Below, in pieces: positions 1 through 35,205 of a stretch of DNA of 64,000 bases (positions are counted from its first letter, which is position 1; each line of letters starts with the position of its first letter). A program made the translations under genes and the position numbers. The notes below the pieces were generated by a model, which was given only the letters and a program-made list of their open reading frames with translations, was not told the origin of the DNA and searched no databases. This DNA comes from Bacteroidota bacterium. Its GTDB lineage: Bacteria; Bacteroidota; Rhodothermia; JANXDC01. The stretch spans positions 1,833,549 to 1,897,548 of the forward strand of contig AP024675.1 in assembly GCA_025998875.1 (NCBI GenBank), written 5' to 3'.

Positions 1-1619
1 GCTGGAACGAAGCAGAGGCTGTCCAGGAAGCCAAGGTCGGGATTGACCAGGAGGATTACCTTCTGTTCAAACTAAGCGGCAAGAACCTCGATCAGGGGAG
101 GCTTGTGAAGTCCCCTTCCTGGGGCTCATATCTCGTGATAGCTCCAGATACCTGGGAACGAGACGAGACATTGTCGGGACCCGCACCAGTCATGCCCGAG
201 CAGGTGTCATTAGCTGGCTTCAAGGCTCACTTCTTTGAGCTTGATAAGAATGGAGACCAAGATATTGCTTTTCGGACTCCAAATGGGGAGTCAAAAGTTA
301 TAAAGAAAAAGGCAAATAGATTTGAATTAATTGGGATAAGAATAGATGATGTAATTGATAAAATAGGTCCTATATTTTTAGAAGGACATCCTCGCATTCT
401 CGATATGAATGAAAAAAAATGGAAGGGTGTTAAGACAATAGTTGTTGGTGAAGAAGGTAGTGGTAGAAAAAGGTGGAAAATTTCTTTTACTCCTGATCAT
501 AATAAAAATGAGCAAGATTTTCCTTCAGATTTTTTAGAGAAAAAAATTGGATGGTATTTTGTTAGATTTTATGATGATAAAAATAATCTTATAGATAGCT
601 TAGATTTTAGATTAATTACCTGTCTCAAAGAAATTAAATTACCTGTATTGGGCATATTTCCATATAGAGATGGATATAAATCAGTACATGTAGAATTAAT
701 TCATGCTAAAGATTGTATTATCAAGCCAGAAAATAATAAAAAAAATATACAAATTGAAATAAAAGATGATAGAACGATTCTTACCGTTCCTCCTGATCCT
801 GATTATGATCTTAGTTATTGGTTGGTTTCTCTAGGAAATGATAATTTACAAGTTAAAATAGGGATCCTTGTGGAAAGAATTTGGTGGACACTGGGAGAAG
901 TGAATCATGTACCATCTCAATGGAGCGATAGACTAGTTGTGCTCTCTCGTGATGACTTTGCTGCCACGTCAAACAAAGCGTTGTGGTTACGACTTCCAAG
1001 ACGCCGCTGGATAGACAAGGTCCTTGTAGGTTTCGAACGATCAAAAGCCAGGCCGTATAATGTAAGAATAACAGAGAATACAATTGTTGTTCCACTTCGT
1101 GACTTTGTTGATTCTCAAGAAATAAGCAATAAGGTGAGGGATTATTTTTTCAAGATATGGATCGAGCGTGACAACGAGTTTCATGAAGGGATTATTGCGA
1201 TTATTCGATCATCGAAATATTTGGAATATTTCAAATTTGGATATGGAAGAAAAAAAACCGCCATCGCAAAAGCAACTATCCAAAATGGATCAGGGACAAT
1301 CAAAATCAATGGGCATGATTGGCGTTATTATTTCAGGACAGCTCCTCCCAAAGCCAGGCAATTCTTAGAAAAGTTAATTGAAATGAAGGAAGTGCAAGAA
1401 AAATTATCAAAACATGAAATCAATATTATCGTTCATGGGAGTCATCCGACGACCATGCGGCAACCGAAAGCAGTGGCCCATGCTATAGCAAGAGCTTTAA
1501 TGAATTATGATCCTTGTCTGGCACCTTTGTTGAGACAGGCAGGATTTGGAGGAGTCAAAGTGAAAGTTTCCGACAGGAGGATAAGCGATGAATCTAATAG
1601 AAATAGCAAGTCAGATTGA
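1..1619 (+). CDS. Partial protein with C-terminal ribosomal uS9-like domain, paired with a DUF1998 helicase
   Basis: The reading frame is open from the window's first complete codon (base 3), so the true start lies upstream; the GTG at 105 is only an internal candidate. About 415 residues before the tail are beta-rich and not recognised. From about base 1239 to 1616 the protein aligns with ribosomal protein uS9: GRKKTAIAKA (1245-1274), INGHDWRYYF (1305-1334), AIARALMNYD (1482-1511) and LLRQAGF (1527-1547) match uS9 blocks in order and spacing. Several positions, such as KTAIAKATI and the SK-I-I-V-G strand, look closer to archaeal than bacterial uS9. The usual basic SKR tail is replaced by SKSD. 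Bases about 290-880 are strikingly AT-rich compared with the flanks. The gene overlaps the helicase start by 32 bases, so the two are probably translated together. The fold call rests on reading the motifs; the function is unknown and no role in the ribosome is implied. Confidence 0.8.
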   Translation, partial: WNEAEAVQEAKVGIDQEDYLLFKLSGKNLDQGRLVKSPSWGSYLVIAPDTWERDETLSGPAPVMPEQVSLAGFKAHFFELDKNGDQDIAFRTPNGESKVIKKKANRFELIGIRIDDVIDKIGPIFLEGHPRILDMNEKKWKGVKTIVVGEEGSGRKRWKISFTPDHNKNEQDFPSDFLEKKIGWYFVRFYDDKNNLIDSLDFRLITCLKEIKLPVLGIFPYRDGYKSVHVELIHAKDCIIKPENNKKNIQIEIKDDRTILTVPPDPDYDLSYWLVSLGNDNLQVKIGILVERIWWTLGEVNHVPSQWSDRLVVLSRDDFAATSNKALWLRLPRRRWIDKVLVGFERSKARPYNVRITENTIVVPLRDFVDSQEISNKVRDYFFKIWIERDNEFHEGIIAIIRSSKYLEYFKFGYGRKKTAIAKATIQNGSGTIKINGHDWRYYFRTAPPKARQFLEKLIEMKEVQEKLSKHEINIIVHGSHPTTMRQPKAVAHAIARALMNYDPCLAPLLRQAGFGGVKVKVSDRRISDESNRNSKSD

Positions 1620-4600
1620 GGAAAGGTATCGTCGCTATCTGAAAACCACCTTTCACTTCAGAGACCCGGAATTCCGTAGGTCTTTTGAACAAGCGTTGGA
1701 CTCGGGCCATCTGAGCAAGGGGCCATACCTTGAAGCCACGCCGGTCTTCAAACGTGGCCAGAGGCCGCGTGAGTTGTTCGCGAATCTGCTTGGATTCCAG
1801 CCAGATGAGGGCTTTCTGAAGGCAGTGCAGGGTGATAGACCTCTTTATCAACATCAGGAAGAAGCAATCTCCAGAGTGTTCAAAGGAAGCAACATAGTTG
1901 TAGCTACAGGCACAGGAAGCGGAAAAACCGAGGCGTTTCTATACCCTATCCTGTTGCATCTTTATCGGGAATTCCGAGCAGGGAAGTTGTGTTGTGGAGT
2001 AAGAGCGCTCATCCTGTATCCGATGAACGCCCTGGCAAACGATCAGCGGGAACGCTTGGGAGAAATTTGTAAGCACCTAAAGGAAGCGAACTCTCCTTTC
2101 CGCTTCACCTTCGGGCAGTATATCGGAGAAACACCTGAAGATGAGAACGATTCTCAGCGACATGCGCGAGATCACCTGGCCGAGCGGGACCAGAAAGGTT
2201 ATTCCCTTATTGAAAGTGGGCACGTTGTGCATGGAGAATTGGTTCTTCGCTCTGAAATGCGCCGCACACCGCCCCATATCCTCCTGACCAACTATTCGAT
2301 GCTGGAGTATCTATTGCTCCGGCCTGACGATAGCCCGCTCTTTGACAACGGGCGCGCTCGGTGGTGGACATTCCTTGTACTTGATGAGGCCCATCAATAC
2401 CGGGGATCACGCGGCGTTGAGATGGCCATGTTGCTACGCCGCCTCAAGCAAAGACTGCGTGAAGGCGGCCGTTCAGAGGCGTTCCGCTGTATTGCGACCA
2501 GTGCGACACTGGTTGGTGGAGAAAGTGACAAAGCAGCCGTCGCGAGGTTCGCCTCAGATTTATTTGGTGAGGAATTTCGTACAGAGGATGTAATCCTGGG
2601 AGAGACAATCCCAGTGCCTGAACCTGGTCCGAGAGAACTGTCCCGCGAAGATTATCGTTCGCTCAAAGACCTTCTCCAAGAAGGGGTCGTGCAAAACGTG
2701 GGTCAACTTGCTGCAATCGCAAGCAAGGTGGGTGTATCGCTTCCAAATAGGGAGGAAGCGGCAAGGATAGTCGGAAGGATTCTTCAAAACGACGGCAGGG
2801 CAACTACTCTTCGACGCTTGATCACAGGTAATCCGGCTGAAGTTCAGAAAGTCGCCGATGACGTCTTTGTCGATCTGCCACAAGAAGAGCGAGTGCCCGC
2901 GTTGTCCGAATTGGTTGAGCTTCTACTGCAAGCGAAGGATCCCTCCTCGGGTGCTCCTCTGTTGTCTGCTCGCTATCATCTCTTCCTTCGCTCTCTGGAG
3001 GGTGCTTTTGTTTCTCTCTGGCCTGAGAAAAAAGTGTTCCTGGATCGAAAAACAATCGGAGCAGGGGGCGCTGCCTTCGAAGTGGCGTTATGTCGGGAGT
3101 GTGGTCAGCATTATTTTGTGGCCCAAAAGAATTTTAATGGTGGTAAGATTCAAGAGGCAATCCGAGATCCAAACGACGTCAATTTCGGAGCGACGTTTCT
3201 TCGACCTATTGAAAGTGAGGAGGATACAAGCACGGATGACGAAGATGTGAATCTCACAGAGAAGGCAACATTTTACCTTTGCGTGCAATGTGGCGAGGCA
3301 CGACGAACAAAACCAGCCTGCGGACACGATAACTATATCCGTGTTGTCAAGGAAGAAACTCCCGACGATGAAGATCGTGCTGACCAGATTGCGAAATGCG
3401 GTGCCTGTGGGTATTCCGCCGCTGGGCGCGATCCCGTTCGGGAGGTTGTGCATGGCACGGATGGTCCTCACGCAGTGATAGTCACGACTCTCTACCAATA
3501 CCTTCCAGAAAGGCGCAAGAAGGTGCTCGCTTTTGCCGATGGACGACAGGAGGCGGCATTTTTCGCGTGGTATCTTGAGGAGTCATATCAAGATATTCTG
3601 AGCCGCAATTTACTTCTCAAGGTTATGCAAGAGTTAAGCCCGCATACGCAAGAGGGTTTATCATTACGAGAAGTGGCAACAAGTCTACGGGATCTTCTCC
3701 GCAAGCGTCATGTCTCTCGACCATCTATGGGAGACCTACAGCTACGGCGTCAAGCCTGGTGCAGACTATATCGCGAATTTCTTACAGACGAGCCAAGGAT
3801 ATCTTTAGAGGGTGTTGGTCTAGTTTGGTGTTGCATCAAGTGGCCGAATTGGTTCAAGATCCCAGAAGCCTTGACGAATCCGCCCTGGTCACTCAGCGAG
3901 CAAGAAGCACGTGATTTAGTATTACTTCTGTTAGACACAATGCGAGCTGACAGAGCGGTTGAACTTCGTACAGAGGAAGGCGTCTCTCTGAGCTGGAATG
4001 ATCTGAATCTCCAGACGTCGCAAATGTGCTTCCGCATCGGCGATCCCAAAGGGAAGAAGAGCGTGCGTAGCTGGGATGGCAAGCAAGGGAAGCGTGCTCG
4101 CTTCTTGGCTAAACTGCTTATGAAGATCAAAAGCGATCTCTCTGGGCAAGAAGCCATCAACGAGGCTGTAAAGATCTTGAGAGAGATATGGGAGGCTATA
4201 AGGCAGACTGATGAACAGGCCCCTTCTTCCTCTGACCGTCTGCTCTTGTCCGTAGATGACGCCCGTAGGCTAAATCCTGATTGGTGGAGACTACATTTCC
4301 TCACCAGTGTTGACACCATCTATCAGTGTGACACCTGCGGCCGCCTTCAGGCCATCTCGGTCCGCGGAGTGTGTCCAAGGCATCGCTGCCCAGGGACGCT
4401 CAGACTAGTGCAGGTAAGTAACCTGGAGCCCAACCACTACCGGTCTCTTTACGAAGAGGATCTGCCTGGGATGTTGCGCGTGGAGGAGCACACAGCACAG
4501 CTTGATAAAGAAAAGGCTCGGGAGTTTCAAAGAGAGTTTCGAAACGGCAATATTCATGTATTGAGTTGCTCGACGACTTTTGAATTAGGCGTAGACCTGG

Positions 4601-6291
4601 GTGACCTCGACGTGATCTTTCTTCGCAACGTTCCCCCGGAGTCGTTTAATTACACACAACGAGTGGGAAGAACCGGACGGCGAAGTGGATACCCTGGATT
4701 TGCTCTCACCTACTGTCGCCGTAGCCCCCATGACCTTTACCACTTTTCTGAGCCAGAGCGGATGCTGGTCGGAAAAGTGCGCCCTCCAGTATTAACGTTG
4801 CGAAACGAGAAGATCCTTACTCGGCATATTGTAGCAGTGACACTATCTCGCTTTTTCCGTGTTTTTCCAGATAGGTTCAAGACCGTGGAGAGCTTATTCA
4901 AAGATCTGATTAATCCATCTGGAGTCAAAGATTTTAAGAATTTTATCCAAAAGCATAGAAGTGAAATAGAAAAATCTATACGTGAGATTGTTCCAGATAA
5001 TATGATAAGTCAACTTGGATTAGACAATGGAACCTGGGTGGATAAGGTCGCTGGCAATGAGAGTCGATTCTATCTAGCTGAGGCTGAGGTCTCAAGTGAC
5101 TACTACACGGCAATCAAGTTTGAGGAGAATGCTCGGAACGAAAGGAAATATCAAGATGCAGATTGGGCACGGAGACGGGCGGATACGATCGCATCAGAAG
5201 ATGTTCTCTCCTTTCTCTCCCGCAAGGCTGTGATTCCGAAGTATGGCTTCCCTGTGGATGTGGTGGAATTGGATACACAAAGAACCCAACAGAGCCAGGA
5301 AGGGTTTGAAGTCATGCTCCAAAGGGACCTCAGCATCGCCATTGCCGAGTTTGCCCCCACCAGTAAACTGGTGGCGAATAAGAAGGTGTGGACATCCTAC
5401 GGACTCAAGAAGGTGGCCGAGAAGGAGTGGCCACGGAAATTCTATAAGCGATGCCCTCAGCATGGTATGTTCGTTCAGTGGACACCTGGTGAACCTGAGC
5501 CCGTAGGAGTCTGCTGTAGCCGAATGAGGAAAGGGACATATCTTGTTCCACATTTTGGATTTGTCACCGATCGCGAAAAGCCGAAGAAGCCAAGATCTCG
5601 CACTCCCAGGGTATTTACAACGCGTCCCTATTTTGCAGGCCGTCCCACCGGTTCTGAGCCTGCTGAAATCACCCTGCCCTTGCGCTCCCCACTAATCACC
5701 CTGAAAAAGGCATCCCCAGGCTATATGGTCGTGCTATGCGAGGGCAGACGAGGGGAAGGATTCTATATCTGTCGTGAATGTGGCGCGGGATTCAGAAAAA
5801 AAGAGAGAACTCATAAGACACCTTATGGCCAAGATTGTTGTGGAACGCTCGAACAGGTTTTTCTCGGACATGAGTTTGTGACGGATGTGCTACAATTGCA
5901 ATTTGAACAAGCGTATGAAGGAAATAATTCTGTATGGTTTTCCTACTCGCTCGCATACGCACTGGTCGAAGGAGCTGCGGATATTTTAGATGTTCCCCCT
6001 ACCGACTTAAGCGCTACAGTGTCTTATGATGAGAGACTCTCTGTGCTCCCGATAATCCTTTATGATAATATACCAGGAGGGGCAGGTCTTGTCGCTCGGC
6101 TTGAAAGCGAAGATATGATGAAATCTTGCTTGGAGGCTGCGAAAAATCGTGTTATCGGAAAATGTGGCTGTGAAGAAAATACGAGCTGTTATGGATGTTT
6201 AAGAAATTATCATAATCAATTTGTTCATCAATATCTTCAGAGGGGTCCAGTGATGTGCTATTTGAAAGAACTACTCTTGAAATGGCAATGA
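1588..6291 (+). CDS. Large DEAH-box helicase with zinc ribbons and C-terminal DUF1998
   Basis: This is a 1567-residue superfamily 2 helicase, probably a DNA translocase in a defence or repair complex. Visible motifs are YQHQ (87-90), Walker A ATGTGSGKT (106-114), DEAH (266-269), SAT (305-307) and motif VI QRVGRTGR (1024-1031). The long spacer between the two RecA lobes carries CxxC pairs near residues 502, 565, 604 and 914, and another lies near 1395, consistent with inserted zinc ribbons. The end has the DUF1998 cysteine cluster CxCx5CxxC (C1526, C1528, C1534, C1537), as in MrfA, DrmB and DruE-type proteins. The start at 1588 is fixed by AGGAGG at 1575-1580. No nuclease domain is evident. 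DISARM would need separate DrmA/B/C genes, which are not seen. A Druantia-type relationship (a large DUF1998 helicase with an upstream partner) is possible but not demonstrated. Confidence 0.9.
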   Translation: MNLIEIASQIEERYRRYLKTTFHFRDPEFRRSFEQALDSGHLSKGPYLEATPVFKRGQRPRELFANLLGFQPDEGFLKAVQGDRPLYQHQEEAISRVFKGSNIVVATGTGSGKTEAFLYPILLHLYREFRAGKLCCGVRALILYPMNALANDQRERLGEICKHLKEANSPFRFTFGQYIGETPEDENDSQRHARDHLAERDQKGYSLIESGHVVHGELVLRSEMRRTPPHILLTNYSMLEYLLLRPDDSPLFDNGRARWWTFLVLDEAHQYRGSRGVEMAMLLRRLKQRLREGGRSEAFRCIATSATLVGGESDKAAVARFASDLFGEEFRTEDVILGETIPVPEPGPRELSREDYRSLKDLLQEGVVQNVGQLAAIASKVGVSLPNREEAARIVGRILQNDGRATTLRRLITGNPAEVQKVADDVFVDLPQEERVPALSELVELLLQAKDPSSGAPLLSARYHLFLRSLEGAFVSLWPEKKVFLDRKTIGAGGAAFEVALCRECGQHYFVAQKNFNGGKIQEAIRDPNDVNFGATFLRPIESEEDTSTDDEDVNLTEKATFYLCVQCGEARRTKPACGHDNYIRVVKEETPDDEDRADQIAKCGACGYSAAGRDPVREVVHGTDGPHAVIVTTLYQYLPERRKKVLAFADGRQEAAFFAWYLEESYQDILSRNLLLKVMQELSPHTQEGLSLREVATSLRDLLRKRHVSRPSMGDLQLRRQAWCRLYREFLTDEPRISLEGVGLVWCCIKWPNWFKIPEALTNPPWSLSEQEARDLVLLLLDTMRADRAVELRTEEGVSLSWNDLNLQTSQMCFRIGDPKGKKSVRSWDGKQGKRARFLAKLLMKIKSDLSGQEAINEAVKILREIWEAIRQTDEQAPSSSDRLLLSVDDARRLNPDWWRLHFLTSVDTIYQCDTCGRLQAISVRGVCPRHRCPGTLRLVQVSNLEPNHYRSLYEEDLPGMLRVEEHTAQLDKEKAREFQREFRNGNIHVLSCSTTFELGVDLGDLDVIFLRNVPPESFNYTQRVGRTGRRSGYPGFALTYCRRSPHDLYHFSEPERMLVGKVRPPVLTLRNEKILTRHIVAVTLSRFFRVFPDRFKTVESLFKDLINPSGVKDFKNFIQKHRSEIEKSIREIVPDNMISQLGLDNGTWVDKVAGNESRFYLAEAEVSSDYYTAIKFEENARNERKYQDADWARRRADTIASEDVLSFLSRKAVIPKYGFPVDVVELDTQRTQQSQEGFEVMLQRDLSIAIAEFAPTSKLVANKKVWTSYGLKKVAEKEWPRKFYKRCPQHGMFVQWTPGEPEPVGVCCSRMRKGTYLVPHFGFVTDREKPKKPRSRTPRVFTTRPYFAGRPTGSEPAEITLPLRSPLITLKKASPGYMVVLCEGRRGEGFYICRECGAGFRKKERTHKTPYGQDCCGTLEQVFLGHEFVTDVLQLQFEQAYEGNNSVWFSYSLAYALVEGAADILDVPPTDLSATVSYDERLSVLPIILYDNIPGGAGLVARLESEDMMKSCLEAAKNRVIGKCGCEENTSCYGCLRNYHNQFVHQYLQRGPVMCYLKELLLKWQ

Positions 6292-22944: not shown

Positions 22945-25644
22945 TCACCGATATACCAGCCGGAAGCCGACATACGTCAGCGGTGGGGGGCGGTAGCCCG
23001 ATTTCGGATCGGCGGGCAGGATGGCCGCCCCGCCTCGAATGACCCCCTGATGCGTGGCATCCAGACACCATTCGGCCACGTTGCCCCCGACGTCGAAGAG
23101 CGGACCCGATCCGGCTCCCGGACGAGAGCCCACCTCCAGCAACAGGGCGTCCGGACGGGGCAGGCTGTCGAGCTTGGCCTGGAGCTGACGCACCTCATCC
23201 GGGTTGGGGCTGTATCCGGCCCAGAAATCAAGCGTATTTTCCTGGGCGCGCCTGCTTTGCACGGCCCGCTCCAGCGCCTCGAATTCCGCCACGGTGGGCA
23301 GCCGTACGGGCCGGCCCAGCTTCCCGGCCAGCCACCGGGCGTAGGCCTGCGCCTCTTCCAGGGAGATGCCGTTTGCCGGATAGTTGTCTGTTCCGGCCGG
23401 ATATGTGTACTCGGGCCGAAAGGCGCGGTACTGGGCGCGCGTGATCTCAAAGCGGCTTACCCAGAGGGAGTCAACCTCCACGAACTCCGGCACCAGGGTG
23501 CCGTCATCGAGCCGCCTGCCGTAGAGGCCGTCGACGCGACTCACCCGGGCTCGGCGCAGCAGTTCTCCCAGGGGGGAATCTGCCTTGAAGGCGGCATTGG
23601 GTTTCTGATAGCGGCCGAAGAGATACTGGTCAAACCAGGCCAGCTCTTCTTCCATCTTCCTGCGCTGGTGTGAGAGGCGCACAAGGCTGTGCTCTGCGCC
23701 GGGGAAGAGGATAAACCGCACCGGCGCCCGGCCCATCTGCTGTAGCGCCCGGTAATGCTGCCAGCCCTGTTCCGTGGGCACGGAGCGGTCCTCGGTGCCG
23801 AAGAAAATGATCGTGGGCGTTACGACCCGGTCCAGGCGGAAGAAGGGCGATTTTTCGATGTAGTGCTTCAGGTTATTCCAAGGGTTGCCCTTGAAGTAGG
23901 ATTCATCGAAGCGTACCCCGAAGGCGCAGTTGCCGTAGTCGGAAATCCAGTTCACGTCTCCTGCGCCCGGAGCGGCGGCCTTAAAAAGGGTGGGGTATTC
24001 GACCGTGAGCCCGATGGTCAGGATCGCTCCGTTGGACCAGCCCATTACCCCCAGACTATCGGGATGTACCAGGCCCTGCTGGATGAGCGCCTCGATACCC
24101 CGCCGGATGTCGGGCAGCTCGTACTCGTAGTAATGCCCCTTGATCGATTCGACAAAGGCAAGCCCGTAGTTAGAGGAGCCATGGTAGTTGGGGCGCAACA
24201 CGAAAGCACCCCGCTGGGCCAGCAGATTCGGGTATCCCGCCCAGGACTCCCGCCAGGCGTCCAGGTCCACAGAGGCGGGACCTCCATGGATGAGCACGAT
24301 CAGGGGGTAGCGGCGTCCGGGCTGGTAGTGGTGCGGATAGTACAGGATGCCCTCCACGGGGTGGTTGCGCGCCCCCCGCCAGCGGAAGACCTCCGCGCGC
24401 GCGATGGTTCGCTCCCGCAGATGCGCGTTCAGCCGGACCAGTTCACGGGGCTCCAGGATGCGCTCTCCCTCCAGGCGCGCCCAGAAATACCGGGTGGGCT
24501 GGCTGGCCCGGGAGTGGGCAAAGACGATTCTTTGTCCGTCCGGTCCCAGCACGAGCCCGCCCAGATGATCCGCCGAGAGGCTTGTATCCGATATCGATAC
24601 CCATCGACGCTCCCAGCCGGAATCGGTGCGCACGTAGTGGGCCAGGCGGTTGTTGGTGCCATTGGCCAGCTGCACGAGCACGCCCTCCCGGGTGGGCACC
24701 ACGGTTCCGAAGCTTCCCAGCCCCCAATCCCACTGCAGGGGCACTTTACTGTAGGTGCGTCGGGTCAGATCGAAATAGTACAGCTCCTCAATTCCGGCCC
24801 CTTCCCACTGAGGGTCGCTGGAGTACGTATCCGTGGCGTAGAAGCCCTTTCCATCGGGCGCCCAGCGAAAGTTTTCCGGGTCCAGATAGCGCTCCGCGAA
24901 GATCTCAACACGCTCCCCCGTCTGCAGGTCGTAGAGGAACTGTCGGGGCTGTTCGCGGGCATCCGCCCCGTAATGGGGGCTCTGGTTGTGCGAAGTGACC
25001 ACATAGCGGCCATCTGGCGAGACGGCAAATTCCGTGATCTGGTCTGTGTTCTCCGTAAGGCGCCGCACGCGCCGGGTATGCACGTCGATCTCAAAGAGCC
25101 TAACCGGGGGCCAGAACTCCCGATCCTCGACCACCTGTGCGTCGTCTTTGCGCTCCTTGAGTTGGCGTTCCCGCAGTGTGGGCTCTTCCCGGGCCAGGAA
25201 AAGGATGCGCACCGAATCCCGCCAGGCAAAGGCGCGCACCCCGCCTTCGTGGTTTGTCAGAGGCCAGGGCTCCCCGCCATCGGGGCGGATGAGCCAGATC
25301 TGTCGGCCTTCTTTGAGGTCCTCGGCCCGGCGGCCGGAAAGAAAGGCGATCCAGCGGCCGTCGGGGCTGAAGCGAGCCGACCCATCGTCGTTTCCACCCC
25401 GGGTAAGCGGAATCGTCCTGCCTTCGGGCAAACGGGTCAGGTACAGGTCGGTTACATGCCGGTCTTTCTTCCAGTCGGCGTAGCGTTTGGCCCAGACCAC
25501 CGCTCGGCCGTCAGGGGCGATATCCATGCCCGAGATGGCTTCCTGCTCGATGACGTCCTCGATCGTCCAGGGTTTGGGGGATCGCTGGGCCCACCCCAAG
25601 ACGGCCAGGGAGCAGAGAAGCAGGCAGAGCACAGCGGCGCGCAT
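22945..25644 (-). CDS. Secreted S9 prolyl-oligopeptidase-family peptidase fused to an FGE-sulfatase-like domain
   Basis: 899 residues. The ATG at 25644 is chosen because AAGGAG sits nine bases before it and the signal peptide (RAAVLCLLLCSLAVLGWAQ) starts there. Residues about 30-400 form a WD/TolB-like propeller with repeated SPDGR-type motifs. Residues about 430-680 are an alpha/beta hydrolase with GWSNG (Ser537), GTEDRS (Asp619) and AEHSL (His652), as in S9 peptidases. From about residue 715 an FGE/SUMF1-type domain follows: SRFEITRAQYRAF, EEAQAYARWLAGKLGRPVRLPT, DVGGNVAEW and a terminal VGFRLVYR. Such domains occur in formylglycine-generating enzymes and also as C-type-lectin-like binding modules. 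A role in peptide scavenging is likely; what the fused domain adds is unknown. Confidence 0.9.
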   Translation of the reverse strand: MRAAVLCLLLCSLAVLGWAQRSPKPWTIEDVIEQEAISGMDIAPDGRAVVWAKRYADWKKDRHVTDLYLTRLPEGRTIPLTRGGNDDGSARFSPDGRWIAFLSGRRAEDLKEGRQIWLIRPDGGEPWPLTNHEGGVRAFAWRDSVRILFLAREEPTLRERQLKERKDDAQVVEDREFWPPVRLFEIDVHTRRVRRLTENTDQITEFAVSPDGRYVVTSHNQSPHYGADAREQPRQFLYDLQTGERVEIFAERYLDPENFRWAPDGKGFYATDTYSSDPQWEGAGIEELYYFDLTRRTYSKVPLQWDWGLGSFGTVVPTREGVLVQLANGTNNRLAHYVRTDSGWERRWVSISDTSLSADHLGGLVLGPDGQRIVFAHSRASQPTRYFWARLEGERILEPRELVRLNAHLRERTIARAEVFRWRGARNHPVEGILYYPHHYQPGRRYPLIVLIHGGPASVDLDAWRESWAGYPNLLAQRGAFVLRPNYHGSSNYGLAFVESIKGHYYEYELPDIRRGIEALIQQGLVHPDSLGVMGWSNGAILTIGLTVEYPTLFKAAAPGAGDVNWISDYGNCAFGVRFDESYFKGNPWNNLKHYIEKSPFFRLDRVVTPTIIFFGTEDRSVPTEQGWQHYRALQQMGRAPVRFILFPGAEHSLVRLSHQRRKMEEELAWFDQYLFGRYQKPNAAFKADSPLGELLRRARVSRVDGLYGRRLDDGTLVPEFVEVDSLWVSRFEITRAQYRAFRPEYTYPAGTDNYPANGISLEEAQAYARWLAGKLGRPVRLPTVAEFEALERAVQSRRAQENTLDFWAGYSPNPDEVRQLQAKLDSLPRPDALLLEVGSRPGAGSGPLFDVGGNVAEWCLDATHQGVIRGGAAILPADPKSGYRPPPLTYVGFRLVYR

Positions 25645-25718
25645 ACCGAGCATCTCCTTGCCTGTGGTATAGAAGCGGCCTAAAGTAGTACGTTCTTTGT
25701 GCACAGGGGCAAGCGAAT

Positions 25719-30554: not shown

Positions 30555-31388
30555 CTAATATCCCATAGCCGCCAGCTTGCGTACCCAGTCGGTGTAGAAC
30601 CGATAGGGATCGAAATCCCGGTTGGCTCCCAGACGCAGGCCCAGTTGCTGGGCATGATCGGCGGGCAGGACCTCCTGAAAATCCCCCCATCGGCTGGAGG
30701 CGACCGATACCATACCGTCGTTGAGGCCTTCGCGTTCGTAGATGACGCTGTTGTACCACATGAGCAGGGGGCTGATGGGAACCTCGGTGCCTTTGCCCGC
30801 TGCTCCGGCGAAGGAGAAATAGCGCACCTCGGGGTGGTTGGGCACATCCGGGTTGAAGACATGCTGTATAAAATCGCGCGTCAACTCCTGGATGGCCGCC
30901 AGGGCTTCTCCACGGTTGTAGCGATATAGCCTGGAGCCCAGCCAGTTGTACAGGACCACCAGCGCCTTCAGAAACGGTTTGGGTTGTTCCAACGCGTATT
31001 CGGCCAGGCTGGTGCCCCGATGGGGGGTGGCCACGGTCGTCAGGGTCGCCACGCGGGGACCCAGATTCAACTTCGTGATCGCGTATCGGCTGTCGAGCCC
31101 GCCCATACTGTGGGCGATGAGGTTGACCCGTTCGGCCCCTGTGATCTCCAGTATCCGCTCGATGCGCGCTTTCCATTCCCGGGCGCGTTGTTCGATCGTG
31201 CCATACGGGGTCACGTTGGGGCAGAAGGCCCAGACCAGGTGCTGGCGCAGGTGCATGGCGATCTCGTAGAACATCCCCCGTCGCGCCATGAGCGCGGCCG
31301 TTCCAAATCCGTGTACGAAGACCACCGGATAGCGAGTGCGCACCAGAGGGGGTTCGGGAAAGGGCACCAACTCGCTCAGTAGCGCCAT
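30555..31388 (-). CDS. Alpha/beta-hydrolase lipase (triacylglycerol lipase-like)
   Basis: 277 residues with no signal peptide. The oxyanion-hole strand is PVVFVHGFGT, the nucleophile elbow AHSMGGLDSRY (Ser in GHSMG-type context), and TVATPHRGTSLAE is typical of family I lipases and the PGAP1/lipase_2 group. The likely acid is in GLNDGMVSVASSRWG and the histidine in LPADHAQQLG. It is the first gene of a three-gene reverse operon with the Fe-S protein and lptB, separated by only three bases. Substrate is probably a medium- or long-chain ester; this is inference. Confidence 0.85.
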   Translation of the reverse strand: MALLSELVPFPEPPLVRTRYPVVFVHGFGTAALMARRGMFYEIAMHLRQHLVWAFCPNVTPYGTIEQRAREWKARIERILEITGAERVNLIAHSMGGLDSRYAITKLNLGPRVATLTTVATPHRGTSLAEYALEQPKPFLKALVVLYNWLGSRLYRYNRGEALAAIQELTRDFIQHVFNPDVPNHPEVRYFSFAGAAGKGTEVPISPLLMWYNSVIYEREGLNDGMVSVASSRWGDFQEVLPADHAQQLGLRLGANRDFDPYRFYTDWVRKLAAMGY

Positions 31389-31449
31389 ACTCTCTCTCCG
31401 GGTTACGGAGCGAAATACGTGGGCTTGAGGGCCAAATTCAAGCCGGGGC

Positions 31450-31477
31450 TTAAGTATCGTTTTGAGACAGCCGATAA
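31450..31477 (+). promoter_or_regulatory. Sigma-28 (FliA) type promoter for flagellin
   Basis: TTAAGTAT (31450-31457) and an exact GCCGATAA (31470-31477) are separated by 12 bases. The consensus is TAAAGTTT-N11-GCCGATAA. It lies 45 bases before the flagellin ATG. This ties the gene to the late flagellar regulon. Confidence 0.8.
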
Positions 31478-31522
31478 AATAGCTCGGGAAGTAGAGACGG
31501 AACAGGAGAAAGGAGTACTGCC

Positions 31523-32383
31523 ATGCCGTTCGGAGATCTGACGCGCATCAATTCCGATGCTCAGTCCTTGGGCGCGCTCAATTCGCTCTTTCGCATCAAC
31601 CGGGAGCTGGGCGTGCGGCAGACGCGTCTGGCCACGGGCTATCGGATCAACTCGGCCGAGGACGATTCGGCCGGCTATGCCCTGGGCAAGAAGCTCGAGG
31701 CCCGCATTCGGGGGCTGAGCGCGGCCCTGGACAACATCGGGGACGCCAAGAACATGCTCTCGGTGGCCGAGGGCGGTCTGCAGTCGATCATGGACATCCT
31801 GCAGACGATCAAGGAGAAGGTCACCCGCGGGGCCAGTGATTCCATGGCGCAAGAGGAGCGCACCGCCATCGTGGCCGACATCCAGGCCCTGGGTCGGGAG
31901 ATCGACCAGATCGTCGAGCAGACCAAGTACAACGGACGCGCCCTGCTGAAGGACTACAACTCCGGGGGATCGTCCCTGTGGTTTCAGGTCGGACCTGATT
32001 CGGCGGACACGGTGCAGTTTCAGTTTACCCAGTCCGGTTTTTATTCCGCCTCCCTGGATAGCGGATTGTTCGGCTCCCTCAGCGGGGCTTCCACAGCGGC
32101 CGATTTTGCGATGGCCCTTGCCTCTGTCGACGGGGTGATCGGCAGGATCAGCGCGGCCATCCGGGACCTGGGCGCCTTCCAGAAGCGGCTTTCTGTGAAG
32201 GAAGAGCTCATCTCCGCGCAGATCACGAACACGGAGGGGGCTCGCAGCCGGGTCTTTGATGCCGATTTTGCCAAGGAGCAGCTGCGCGTGGCCAAGTTGC
32301 AGATCCTGCAGCAGACGGCCACCGTTGCCCTGGCGCAGGCCAACGCCAATCCGCAGGCGGTGCTCTCCCTGTTCCGTCAGTGA
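31523..32383 (+). CDS. fliC: Flagellin
   Basis: 286 residues, a short flagellin with both conserved helical ends and almost no variable domain. The N-terminal D0/D1 part has [24 protein letters not shown] and [17 protein letters not shown], then the [13 protein letters not shown] and KYNGRALL blocks. The C-terminal part has [33 protein letters not shown] and ends [24 protein letters not shown]. It forms the filament after export by the flagellar type III system. AAAGGAG lies just before the ATG, with a sigma-28 promoter upstream and an intrinsic terminator downstream. No chaperone (FliS) or cap gene (FliD) is adjacent. Confidence 0.93.
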
Positions 32384-32411
32384 TTCCGACCGGAGTCACA
32401 CACCGCCACCC

Positions 32412-32448
32412 CACCGGCCGGGTCGAGGGGCCCGGCCGGTGTTTTTTT
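32412..32448 (+). terminator. Rho-independent terminator of the flagellin gene
   Basis: A perfect 11-bp stem (CACCGGCCGGG at 32412-32422 with its complement at 32431-32441) and an 8-base loop are followed by seven T residues (32442-32448). It lies 29 bases after the stop codon. Confidence 0.92.
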
Positions 32449-32463
32449 GGCTCTCTGGGCCGC

Positions 32464-32495
32464 TTTCGGCAAAGCGCTCCGAGGCGATATATTCA
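32464..32495 (+). promoter_or_regulatory. Candidate Bacteroidota-type promoter of ppdK
   Basis: TTTC (32464-32467), a 20-base spacer and TATATTCA (32488-32495) approximate the TTTG-N19-21-TAnnTTTG pattern. It lies 40 bases before the ppdK ATG and just after the flagellin terminator. Confidence 0.45.
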
Positions 32496-32535
32496 CGGCG
32501 GTCATCCGTCATCGACACGCAAGGAGGTTTTTTCT

Positions 32536-35205
32536 ATGGGGCACAAATGGGTATACACGTTCGGCGGCGGCTCGGCCGAGGGGCGGGCCGACATGCGCGA
32601 CCTGCTGGGGGGAAAGGGGGCCAATTTGGCCGAGATGAGCGCCATCGGATTGCCCGTTCCGCCCGGCTTTACCATCACCACCGAAGCCTGTAAGTACTAT
32701 TACGACAACGGCAAGACCTATCCACCTGAGCTCTGGGAGCAGGTTGAGGAGGCTCTGGCCTTTGTCGAACGGCTGATGGGGCGCCGCTTCGGGGATCCCT
32801 CCAGTCCCCTGCTGGTTTCGGTACGTTCCGGCGCGGCGATCTCCATGCCCGGCATGATGGATACGGTGCTCAACCTGGGCATCAACGACGAGGTCGTCGA
32901 GGGCCTTATTCGGCAGACGGGGAACCCCCGTTTCGCGTGGGATGCCTATCGGCGTTTTATCGATATGTTCGGCGATGTGGTCATGGGCGTCGATCATGCG
33001 CACTTCGAAGAGGCGCTCGAGGGGCTGAAGCGCGAGCGGGGGGTAAAGGAGGATACCGAGCTGACGGCCGAGGATCTGCGCGAGTTGGTCAACCGCTATA
33101 AAGCCATATATCGCCAGCATACCGGACATATGTTTCCGACCGATCCTCGGGAGCAGCTGGATCGGGCTATTCGGGCTGTGTTCGAGTCCTGGAACAGCGA
33201 GCGCGCCATTAAATATCGGCAGATCAACAAGATCCGGGGGCTGCTCGGCACGGCCGTTAACGTGCAGACCATGGTTTTTGGCAACATGGGCGAGACCTCC
33301 GGTACCGGGGTCTGCTTTACCCGCAACCCCTCGACGGGGGAACGGGAGCTCTACGGCGAGTATCTGCCCAATGCGCAGGGCGAGGACGTGGTGGCCGGTA
33401 TCCGCACGCCGCTTCCCATTTCCGCGCTCAAGGAGCAGATGCCCGAGGTCTACGCCCAGCTGCTCGATATCGCCGGTCGGCTGGAGCGGCACTATAAGAA
33501 CATGCAGGATATCGAGTTTACCGTCCAGGAGGGACGGCTGTTTATTCTGCAGACCCGGCATGGCAAGCGCACAGGTCCTGCGGCGGTGAAGATCGCCGTA
33601 GACATGGTTCGCGAGGGGCTTGTGACTCCGGAAGAGGCGGTGCGCAATCTGGTCGAGCCCCGGCATATCGATCAGCTCCTGCATCCCCGCTTTCAAGACG
33701 AAGAGGGATACCGCAAGGCCGGGCGCGTCATCGGGCGCGGGCTTCCCGCCTCGCCCGGCGCTGCGGTTGGGCGCGCCGTGTTCTCGGCAGAAGACGCCGA
33801 AGCCTGGCACGCCCGGGGGGAGAAGGTCATCCTAGTGCGTATTGAGACCTCTCCGGAAGATGTCGGCGGTATGCACGCCGCCGAGGGGATTCTGACCAGC
33901 CGGGGGGGCATGACGAGCCATGCGGCCGTGGTCGCCCGGGGGTGGGGAAAGCCCTGCGTGGCCGGATGCGGGGATATCGTCATCGATTATGCTACCCGAA
34001 GCTTCACCAACGGGCGCGTTACGGTCCGCGAGGGGGATTGGATCTCCCTCAACGGCACCACGGGTGAGGTCATCCTGGGGGCCGAAGCGCTCGTCGAGCC
34101 AGAGCTCAGCGGGGACTTTGCCACGTTCATGAGCTGGGTCGATCGCTTCCGGACCCTGCGCGTGCGCGCGAACGCGGATACCCCAGAAGACGCCCGGATC
34201 GCCCGGCAGTTCGGGGCCGAAGGGATTGGTCTCTGCCGCACGGAGCACATGTTCTTCGAAGGCGACCGGATCTGGGCCGTGCGGGAGATGATTATCGCCG
34301 AGGACGAAGCCGGTCGGCGTCGGGCGCTCGATAAGCTACTGCCCATGCAGCGGGAGGATTTCTACGCCATCTTTCGCGAGATGGAAGGGCTTCCGGTAAC
34401 CATTCGTCTGCTCGACCCGCCGCTTCATGAGTTCCTGCCCCAGGAGCTGGAGCAGCAAAAGGAGATGGCCGAACGGCTGGGGGTGAGTCTGGAGCGGGTG
34501 CGTGCGCGCGTGCAGGCGCTCCATGAGCTCAACCCCATGCTCGGGCATCGAGGTTGCCGACTGGGCATTACCTATCCAGAGATCACCGAAATGCAGGCGC
34601 GCGCCATCCTGGAGGCGGCCTGCCGCATGGCCAAAGAGGGGCGCACAGTCTATCCGGAGATCATGGTGCCGCTTGTGGGCACGGTCGAAGAACTGCGCCA
34701 TCAGCGCCAGATTATAGACCGGGTGGCTGGCCAGGTCATGCGTGAGCAGGGCGTGGAGGTGGCCTATCTGGTGGGCACCATGATCGAGGTGCCCCGCGCG
34801 GCCCTGGTGGCCGACCAGATCGCCGAGGAGGCGCAGTTCTTCAGCTTCGGCACCAACGACCTCACCCAGCTCACCTTTGGCTATAGCCGCGATGATATAG
34901 GTAAGTTCCTGCCTCAGTACCTGGAGCTCAAAATCCTGCCCGATGATCCATTTCAGACACTCGATCAGGCCGGAGTAGGCCAGCTTGTGCAGATGGCCAC
35001 GGAACGCGGACGTCGGGTGCGCCCGGCGCTCAAGGTGGGCATCTGCGGGGAACACGGGGGGGATCCGGCCTCCGTGGAATTCTTTTTCCGAGCAGGGCTC
35101 GATTACGTAAGCTGTTCCCCGTACCGGGTGCCGGTCGCCCGGCTGGCGGCCGCCCAGGCGGCGCTCAAGCAGAAACCAATTGCGGCGATGGTCGGGGAAG
35201 CCTGA
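32536..35205 (+). CDS. ppdK: Pyruvate, phosphate dikinase
   Basis: 889 residues, normal length. It interconverts pyruvate + ATP + Pi and PEP + AMP + PPi. AAGGAGG at 32521-32527 fixes the start, although the frame is open to 32380. Domains: N-terminal ATP-grasp ([20 protein letters not shown]), the swivelling phosphohistidine domain ([19 protein letters not shown], His462), and a C-terminal TIM barrel with [35 protein letters not shown] and the catalytic [10 protein letters not shown] (Cys837). It is probably a gluconeogenic or PPi-linked glycolytic enzyme here. Confidence 0.97.

Follow-up and report, generated by a model that had tools for sequence, protein, structure and literature searches.

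The flagellin gene described here very probably encodes a second filament flagellin whose ends are kept uniform by gene conversion with those of a canonical flagellin gene, in a T9SS-bearing host that has a flagellar gene set. It lies in the window, the 64,000-nucleotide stretch that was analysed, which corresponds to bases 1833549-1897548 of a complete one-contig genome of 2,354,932 bases (G000). The canonical gene lies 532 kb away in inverted orientation, and we interpret the pair as a likely case of concerted evolution between unlinked flagellins. The features of the window gene are as follows (window positions):

31450-31477, plus strand: sigma-28 (FliA)-type promoter, TTAAGTATC-N-GCCGATAA, found by genome pattern search; its core is kept in the same-genus genome G001
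31509-31962, plus strand: 5' segment, apparently homogenised, comprising 14 nt before the ATG (with AGGAG) and codons 1-146; 2 differences from the canonical gene, at 31568 and 31836
31523-32383, plus strand: open reading frame of the second filament flagellin, 286 aa, ATG start, with Pfam and NCBIfam matches
31963-32210, plus strand: diverged middle, covering about residues 147-230, with 97 differences in 252 nt and 49 of 84 aa identical
32211-32376, plus strand: 3' segment, apparently homogenised; 2 differences from the canonical gene, at 32353 and 32359
32377-32383, plus strand: locus-specific 3' end, gene end CGTCAGTGA, common to the ppdK locus of G001; CGCTAA at the fliS loci
32412-32441, plus strand: intrinsic terminator, a stem of 13 pairs followed by seven T

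A compact flagellin, its control signals and its genome

The reading frame (genome coordinates 1865071-1865931, plus strand) matched Flagellin_N at residues 9-146 (112.6 bits against a curated cut-off of 26.6; 2e-32) and Flagellin_C at residues 200-284 (69.1 bits against a curated cut-off of 23; 4.2e-19). The two domains are colinear and together cover most of the protein, placing it in the FliC family, and the domain scan revealed no D2/D3 insert, in agreement with the earlier note, which had described a 286-residue flagellin with almost no surface domain. The best PDB sequence matches were filament flagellins of 271-281 aa (top match 9lrz, 1.1e-36). An AlphaFold2 model built from 17 sequences (mean pLDDT 76.9, pTM 0.59) has helices at residues 6-38, 49-103, 110-133 and 192-285 and strands at 151-155 and 163-167, and Foldseek matched this D0/D1 helical fold to filament flagellins at E about 1e-12. 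Because the domain scores, PDB relatives, model and Foldseek matches agree, the protein is of the D0/D1-only type, a common compact kind. The junction protein FlgL was rejected as an identity (FlgL model 58.9 bits, below its cut-off of 127.2), and a separate FlgL-like gene adjoins flgK elsewhere in the genome; profile scores also ruled out other rod and hook proteins.

As stated in the earlier note, the gene sits between a lipase-like alpha/beta-hydrolase gene and ppdK. None of the 18 other window ORFs scanned is a flagellar gene, so the description of the gene as solitary holds locally; genome-wide it does not, given a near-twin flagellin and other flagellar genes. An Rfam scan of 31300-32700 gave no match. 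Among the other window ORFs, one at 1588-6291 encodes a 1567-aa DEAD/DEAH helicase-like protein that scores far below every curated cut-off, and a 642-aa ORF without a Pfam match at 23755-25683 overlaps an antisense 919-aa ORF, either of which could be the gene.

FliA is encoded at 397894 (210 bits, cut-off 189.6), downstream of FlhA; an SRP54-type GTPase and a MinD-type ATPase, likewise upstream of FliA, are probably FlhF and FlhG. A second cluster, at 1312-1333 kb, includes FlgG, FlgH, FlgK, an FlgL-like protein, FlaG, FliD and FliS, with flgA, flgI, FlgL and chemotaxis genes named there by eye. The canonical flagellin (292 aa; 1331979-1332857, minus strand) adjoins FliS, FliD and FlaG. The earlier note had proposed a search for fliA, the export apparatus and fliS, and had reasoned that without fliA and a flagellar apparatus the gene would be a relic; FliA, FlhA and FliS are all present, and the relic reading was rejected in view of FliA, the flagellar genes and the conserved promoter.

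The promoter pattern TTAAGN{13,16}CCGATAA has exactly two exact matches in 2.35 Mb and none in a reversed control, and both matches lie upstream of flagellin genes, one at the window locus and the other, elsewhere in the genome where the earlier note had suggested looking, before the canonical gene. Each of the two genes also appears to have its own terminator. A pattern with a stricter -10 and a looser -35, TAAN{14,16}GCCGATAA, matched once in the genome versus three times in the control and is uninformative alone; the promoter evidence therefore needs both halves together with their position. In G001, the stretch from GGGCTTAAGTATCGTTTTGAGA to GCCGATAA is kept amid diverged surrounding bases, in the same orientation relative to the window-locus flagellin, and a G/C-rich hairpin with a T tract occurs at the position matching the window terminator. 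Upstream regions of relatives lend modest support: TAA-N13-17-CCGAT was found in 9 of 17 entries; one G003 gene is counted twice among the 17, and the -35 of one match is poor. The window gene is further preceded by AGGAG at 31511-31515. Since FliA scores above its cut-off, the promoter is kept in a second species and a flagellar gene set is present, the proposal that the gene belongs to a sigma-28 regulon is supported by these sequence features, and the sigma-28 promoter and strong terminator of the earlier note were both recovered.

MotA_N (PF20560) gave no match in the complete G000 genome, whose flagellar gene set is otherwise rich, in a search that detected it in 4 of 14 control genomes. 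The stator of G000 may be divergent, or swimming, and with it rotation of the flagellum, may be in question. Because promoter and hairpin are kept in G001, we argue that the flagellin is used despite the missing MotA_N match. An isolated flagellin gene can, on this evidence, be a maintained member of a regulon and not a relic.

Mosaic identity of the two copies

Between the two flagellin genes, 2 of 438 nt differ in codons 1-146, 97 of 252 in the middle and 3 of 165 in codons 231-285, which makes 5 of 603 nt in the two ends combined; at the protein level the end segments are 99-100% identical. A permutation test produced no spread of differences as uneven in 20,000 trials (0/20000). The flanks outside 31509-32376 appear unrelated between the two loci. 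In codons that specify identical amino acids, synonymous differences number 4 of 200 in the ends versus 23 of 49 in the middle (Fisher p 3.6e-15). Since synonymous sites match in the ends but differ in the middle, the ends are best read as homogenised DNA, not merely as conserved protein. In the structure model the diverged middle comprises the beta-hairpin, the outer loops and the outer part of the long C-terminal helix, and the DNA encoding it includes a 34-bp identical island at 32150-32183. The two middles are nevertheless nearest to each other (58%), the next flagellins among the 70 sequences compared being at 39-40%.

We propose that gene conversion between the unlinked, inverted loci keeps the ribosome-binding site, codons 1-146 and codons 231-284 near-identical. 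The homogenised codons encode the helices of the D0/D1 core, which contact adjacent subunits and are recognised in export and by FliS; the outer-face segment would have escaped conversion and diverged. Conversion seeded by the identical ends could maintain the compatibility of the two copies, and the outer segment may be either too different for conversion or held apart by selection. Both genes would most likely be transcribed by FliA-RNA polymerase and their products exported with FliS and assembled into one lattice, because the core helices of the two flagellins are identical. With a homogenised core and a diverged middle, the cell could thus make two lattice-compatible subunits with different surfaces, and the different outer face might have a hydrodynamic, surface-adhesion or phage-receptor role. 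The pair would offer a clean natural case in which conversion over a long chromosomal distance keeps the assembly core of a filament uniform as its exposed part diverges.

The locus in a second species and competing explanations

G001 is the only same-genus genome found, so only two species enter the comparison. Searching it with 5.9 kb around the window flagellin identified the locus at about 73-81% DNA identity. Three G001 contigs stop inside a flagellin gene: C11 comes from the lipase side and C10 from the ppdK side, and the third, C16, also bears the fliS side. Contigs thus end at both loci, with the promoter shared at the lipase side and the terminal codons at the ppdK side. A further contig, C8, was rejected as the holder of the canonical 5' end, as it begins inside a glycosyltransferase gene. 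All G001 flagellin contigs break inside the gene, which places the middles, the canonical 5' end and the way the ends join outside the comparison; the grouping by genome described below therefore covers the 3' segment alone, as just one of the two genomes shows the 5' segment at each of its loci.

C10 and C16 carry the same 141 bp of the 3' segment without a single difference. Assemblers often use a k-mer of this length, so the stretch really shared in G001 may not have exactly this extent. Across these 141 bp, the four sequences have 16 variable columns, 14 of which group by genome, two involve differences within G000 and none group by locus. Over 138 nt of the segment, orthologues differ at 15-16 positions and paralogues at 2 and 0, so that paralogues are closer within than between species, the pattern expected of concerted evolution. 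The terminal codons, in contrast, go by locus: both ppdK-side copies end in CGTCAGTGA and both fliS-side copies in CGCTAA. Because the 3' sites group by genome and the terminal codons by locus, the duplication is probably older than the split of the genus's two known species, and the 3' segment was probably homogenised after that split, separately in each lineage.

The small number of differences in the ends, and an identity that runs cassette-like from 14 nt before the ATG to just before the stop codon, would also follow if the gene were a very recent copy of the canonical one whose middle had since been exchanged, through recombination, for flagellin DNA of foreign origin. G001, however, has flagellin ends at the matching lipase and ppdK sides together with the promoter and terminal codons, which largely refutes a recent duplication, and the middles are closest to each other and not to those of other taxa; we regard this explanation as very unlikely. 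Strong purifying selection on the protein core alone is extremely unlikely to account for the identical ends, even though D0/D1 is where all flagellins are conserved and, in this class as a whole too, the middle varies more than the N and C segments. Such selection does not explain why synonymous differences are scarce in the ends and frequent in the middle, and the same end codons differ synonymously between the two species at 12-16 of 42-45.

The remaining alternatives concern what the second copy does. Its distance from the flagellar operons and the indicated exchange between the copies could suggest a relic in decay, or a silent donor that only feeds variation to the canonical locus. Donor cassettes as a rule have no promoter, whereas the window flagellin has one, along with an open frame, a ribosome-binding site and a terminator, and its promoter core and hairpin are kept in G001; we consider a donor or relic improbable. 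We likewise give low probability to a long-range recombination switch, in which exchange between the copies, by conversion or a 532-kb inversion, would repeatedly reshuffle surface against promoter; if it operated, the cell could change the surface of its filament with no need for a site-specific recombinase. A phase switch that allows one of two flagellins to be made at a time is suggested by a pair that is unlinked, similar at its ends and different in between, as in Salmonella fliC/fljB. It is highly unlikely here, as a search of 31380-31640 around the promoter revealed no inverted repeats, the promoter has equal orientation in G001 and the immediate neighbours include no repressor-like gene. 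Conversion between two flagellins that are probably both used remains our preferred reading.

Flagellins across the class and in known systems

Our class survey covered 244 genomes, with flagellin matches counted at E <= 0.001. Flagellin-like genes were present in 91, some weak matches probably being FlgL alone, and SprA, the T9SS translocon, in 242; the two SprA-negative genomes (G084 and G206) are not among the 91. Because all 91 are SprA-positive, a flagellin and a T9SS in one genome are ordinary in this class, and the earlier note's view of this co-occurrence as notable is not supported. What sets the gene apart is its inverted, far-off near-twin, alike at both ends and different in between. 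The T9SS signal of the earlier note is borne out for the genome but not for the window: all 13 T9SS sorting tails (TIGR04183) detected lie outside the window, and SprA, from which a Bacteroidota-like lineage can be inferred, is at G000:C1:1294782-1301657, some 11 kb away from flgG. A search for GldL gave no match and, with an equally silent control, was uninformative. In G001, SprA lies on C16, the contig that bears the fliS-side flagellin end.

The best match to the window flagellin outside the genus by E-value was 52% identical, and among the matches listed none exceeded 55%. In relatives with several flagellins, the copies are often neighbours. Among 17 pairs from relatives, which were loci picked from the set in use and not a full census, two (G025 and G035, same genus) strongly show conserved ends, and the remainder are uniform, uniformly diverged or of the reverse pattern. 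The G009 tandem pair (L020) is an example of the opposite arrangement, its middle being 98.8% identical and its N segment only 86.5%. The tandem pairs of G025 (L018/L037) and G035 (L035) have ends that are 98-99% identical and long middles that are only 65-68% identical, which suggests that conversion has left a like pattern in a further family of this class. Nucleotide identities there (N 98.4-98.6%, middle 65-68%, C 98.8-99.4%) resemble those of our pair. Unlike the tandem arrays of G025, G035 and G031, where the copies are neighbours, the second copy studied here occupies a distant housekeeping locus.

Salmonella fliC and fljB are unlinked and have homogenised ends. Like the present pair, they are two filament flagellins with a divergent middle region (PMC8306008), and they are the closest counterpart of the pair described here. 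Unlike fliC/fljB, both genes here have a FliA-type promoter, no invertible segment was seen around the window promoter and the proteins lack D2/D3. Concerted evolution is listed for Alteromonadales fla in PMC6053082, and our paralogues are similarly closer within a genome than between species; the differences are the bacterial group, the spared middle and the 532 kb between copies. In Shewanella, Campylobacter and Helicobacter, major and minor flagellins occur together in one filament (PMC8306008). The present genome likewise encodes two subunits, and both of its promoters are sigma-28-type, unlike Campylobacter and Helicobacter, where the second is sigma-54. FliC-1 and FliC-2 of Pseudomonas kilonensis are described as evolutionarily distinct, with FliC-2 not supporting motility, in PMC9927476; like FliC-2, the window flagellin is a second gene with its own promoter, but the end segments of our pair are near-identical in protein. 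The literature searched on flagellin conversion or concerted evolution, on Bacteroidetes/Rhodothermaeota flagella and T9SS and on Salinibacter yielded no report of this pair, which is a weak negative. Compared with these systems, the pattern is already known in kind, and its new parts are the distance between the copies, their orientation and the lineage.
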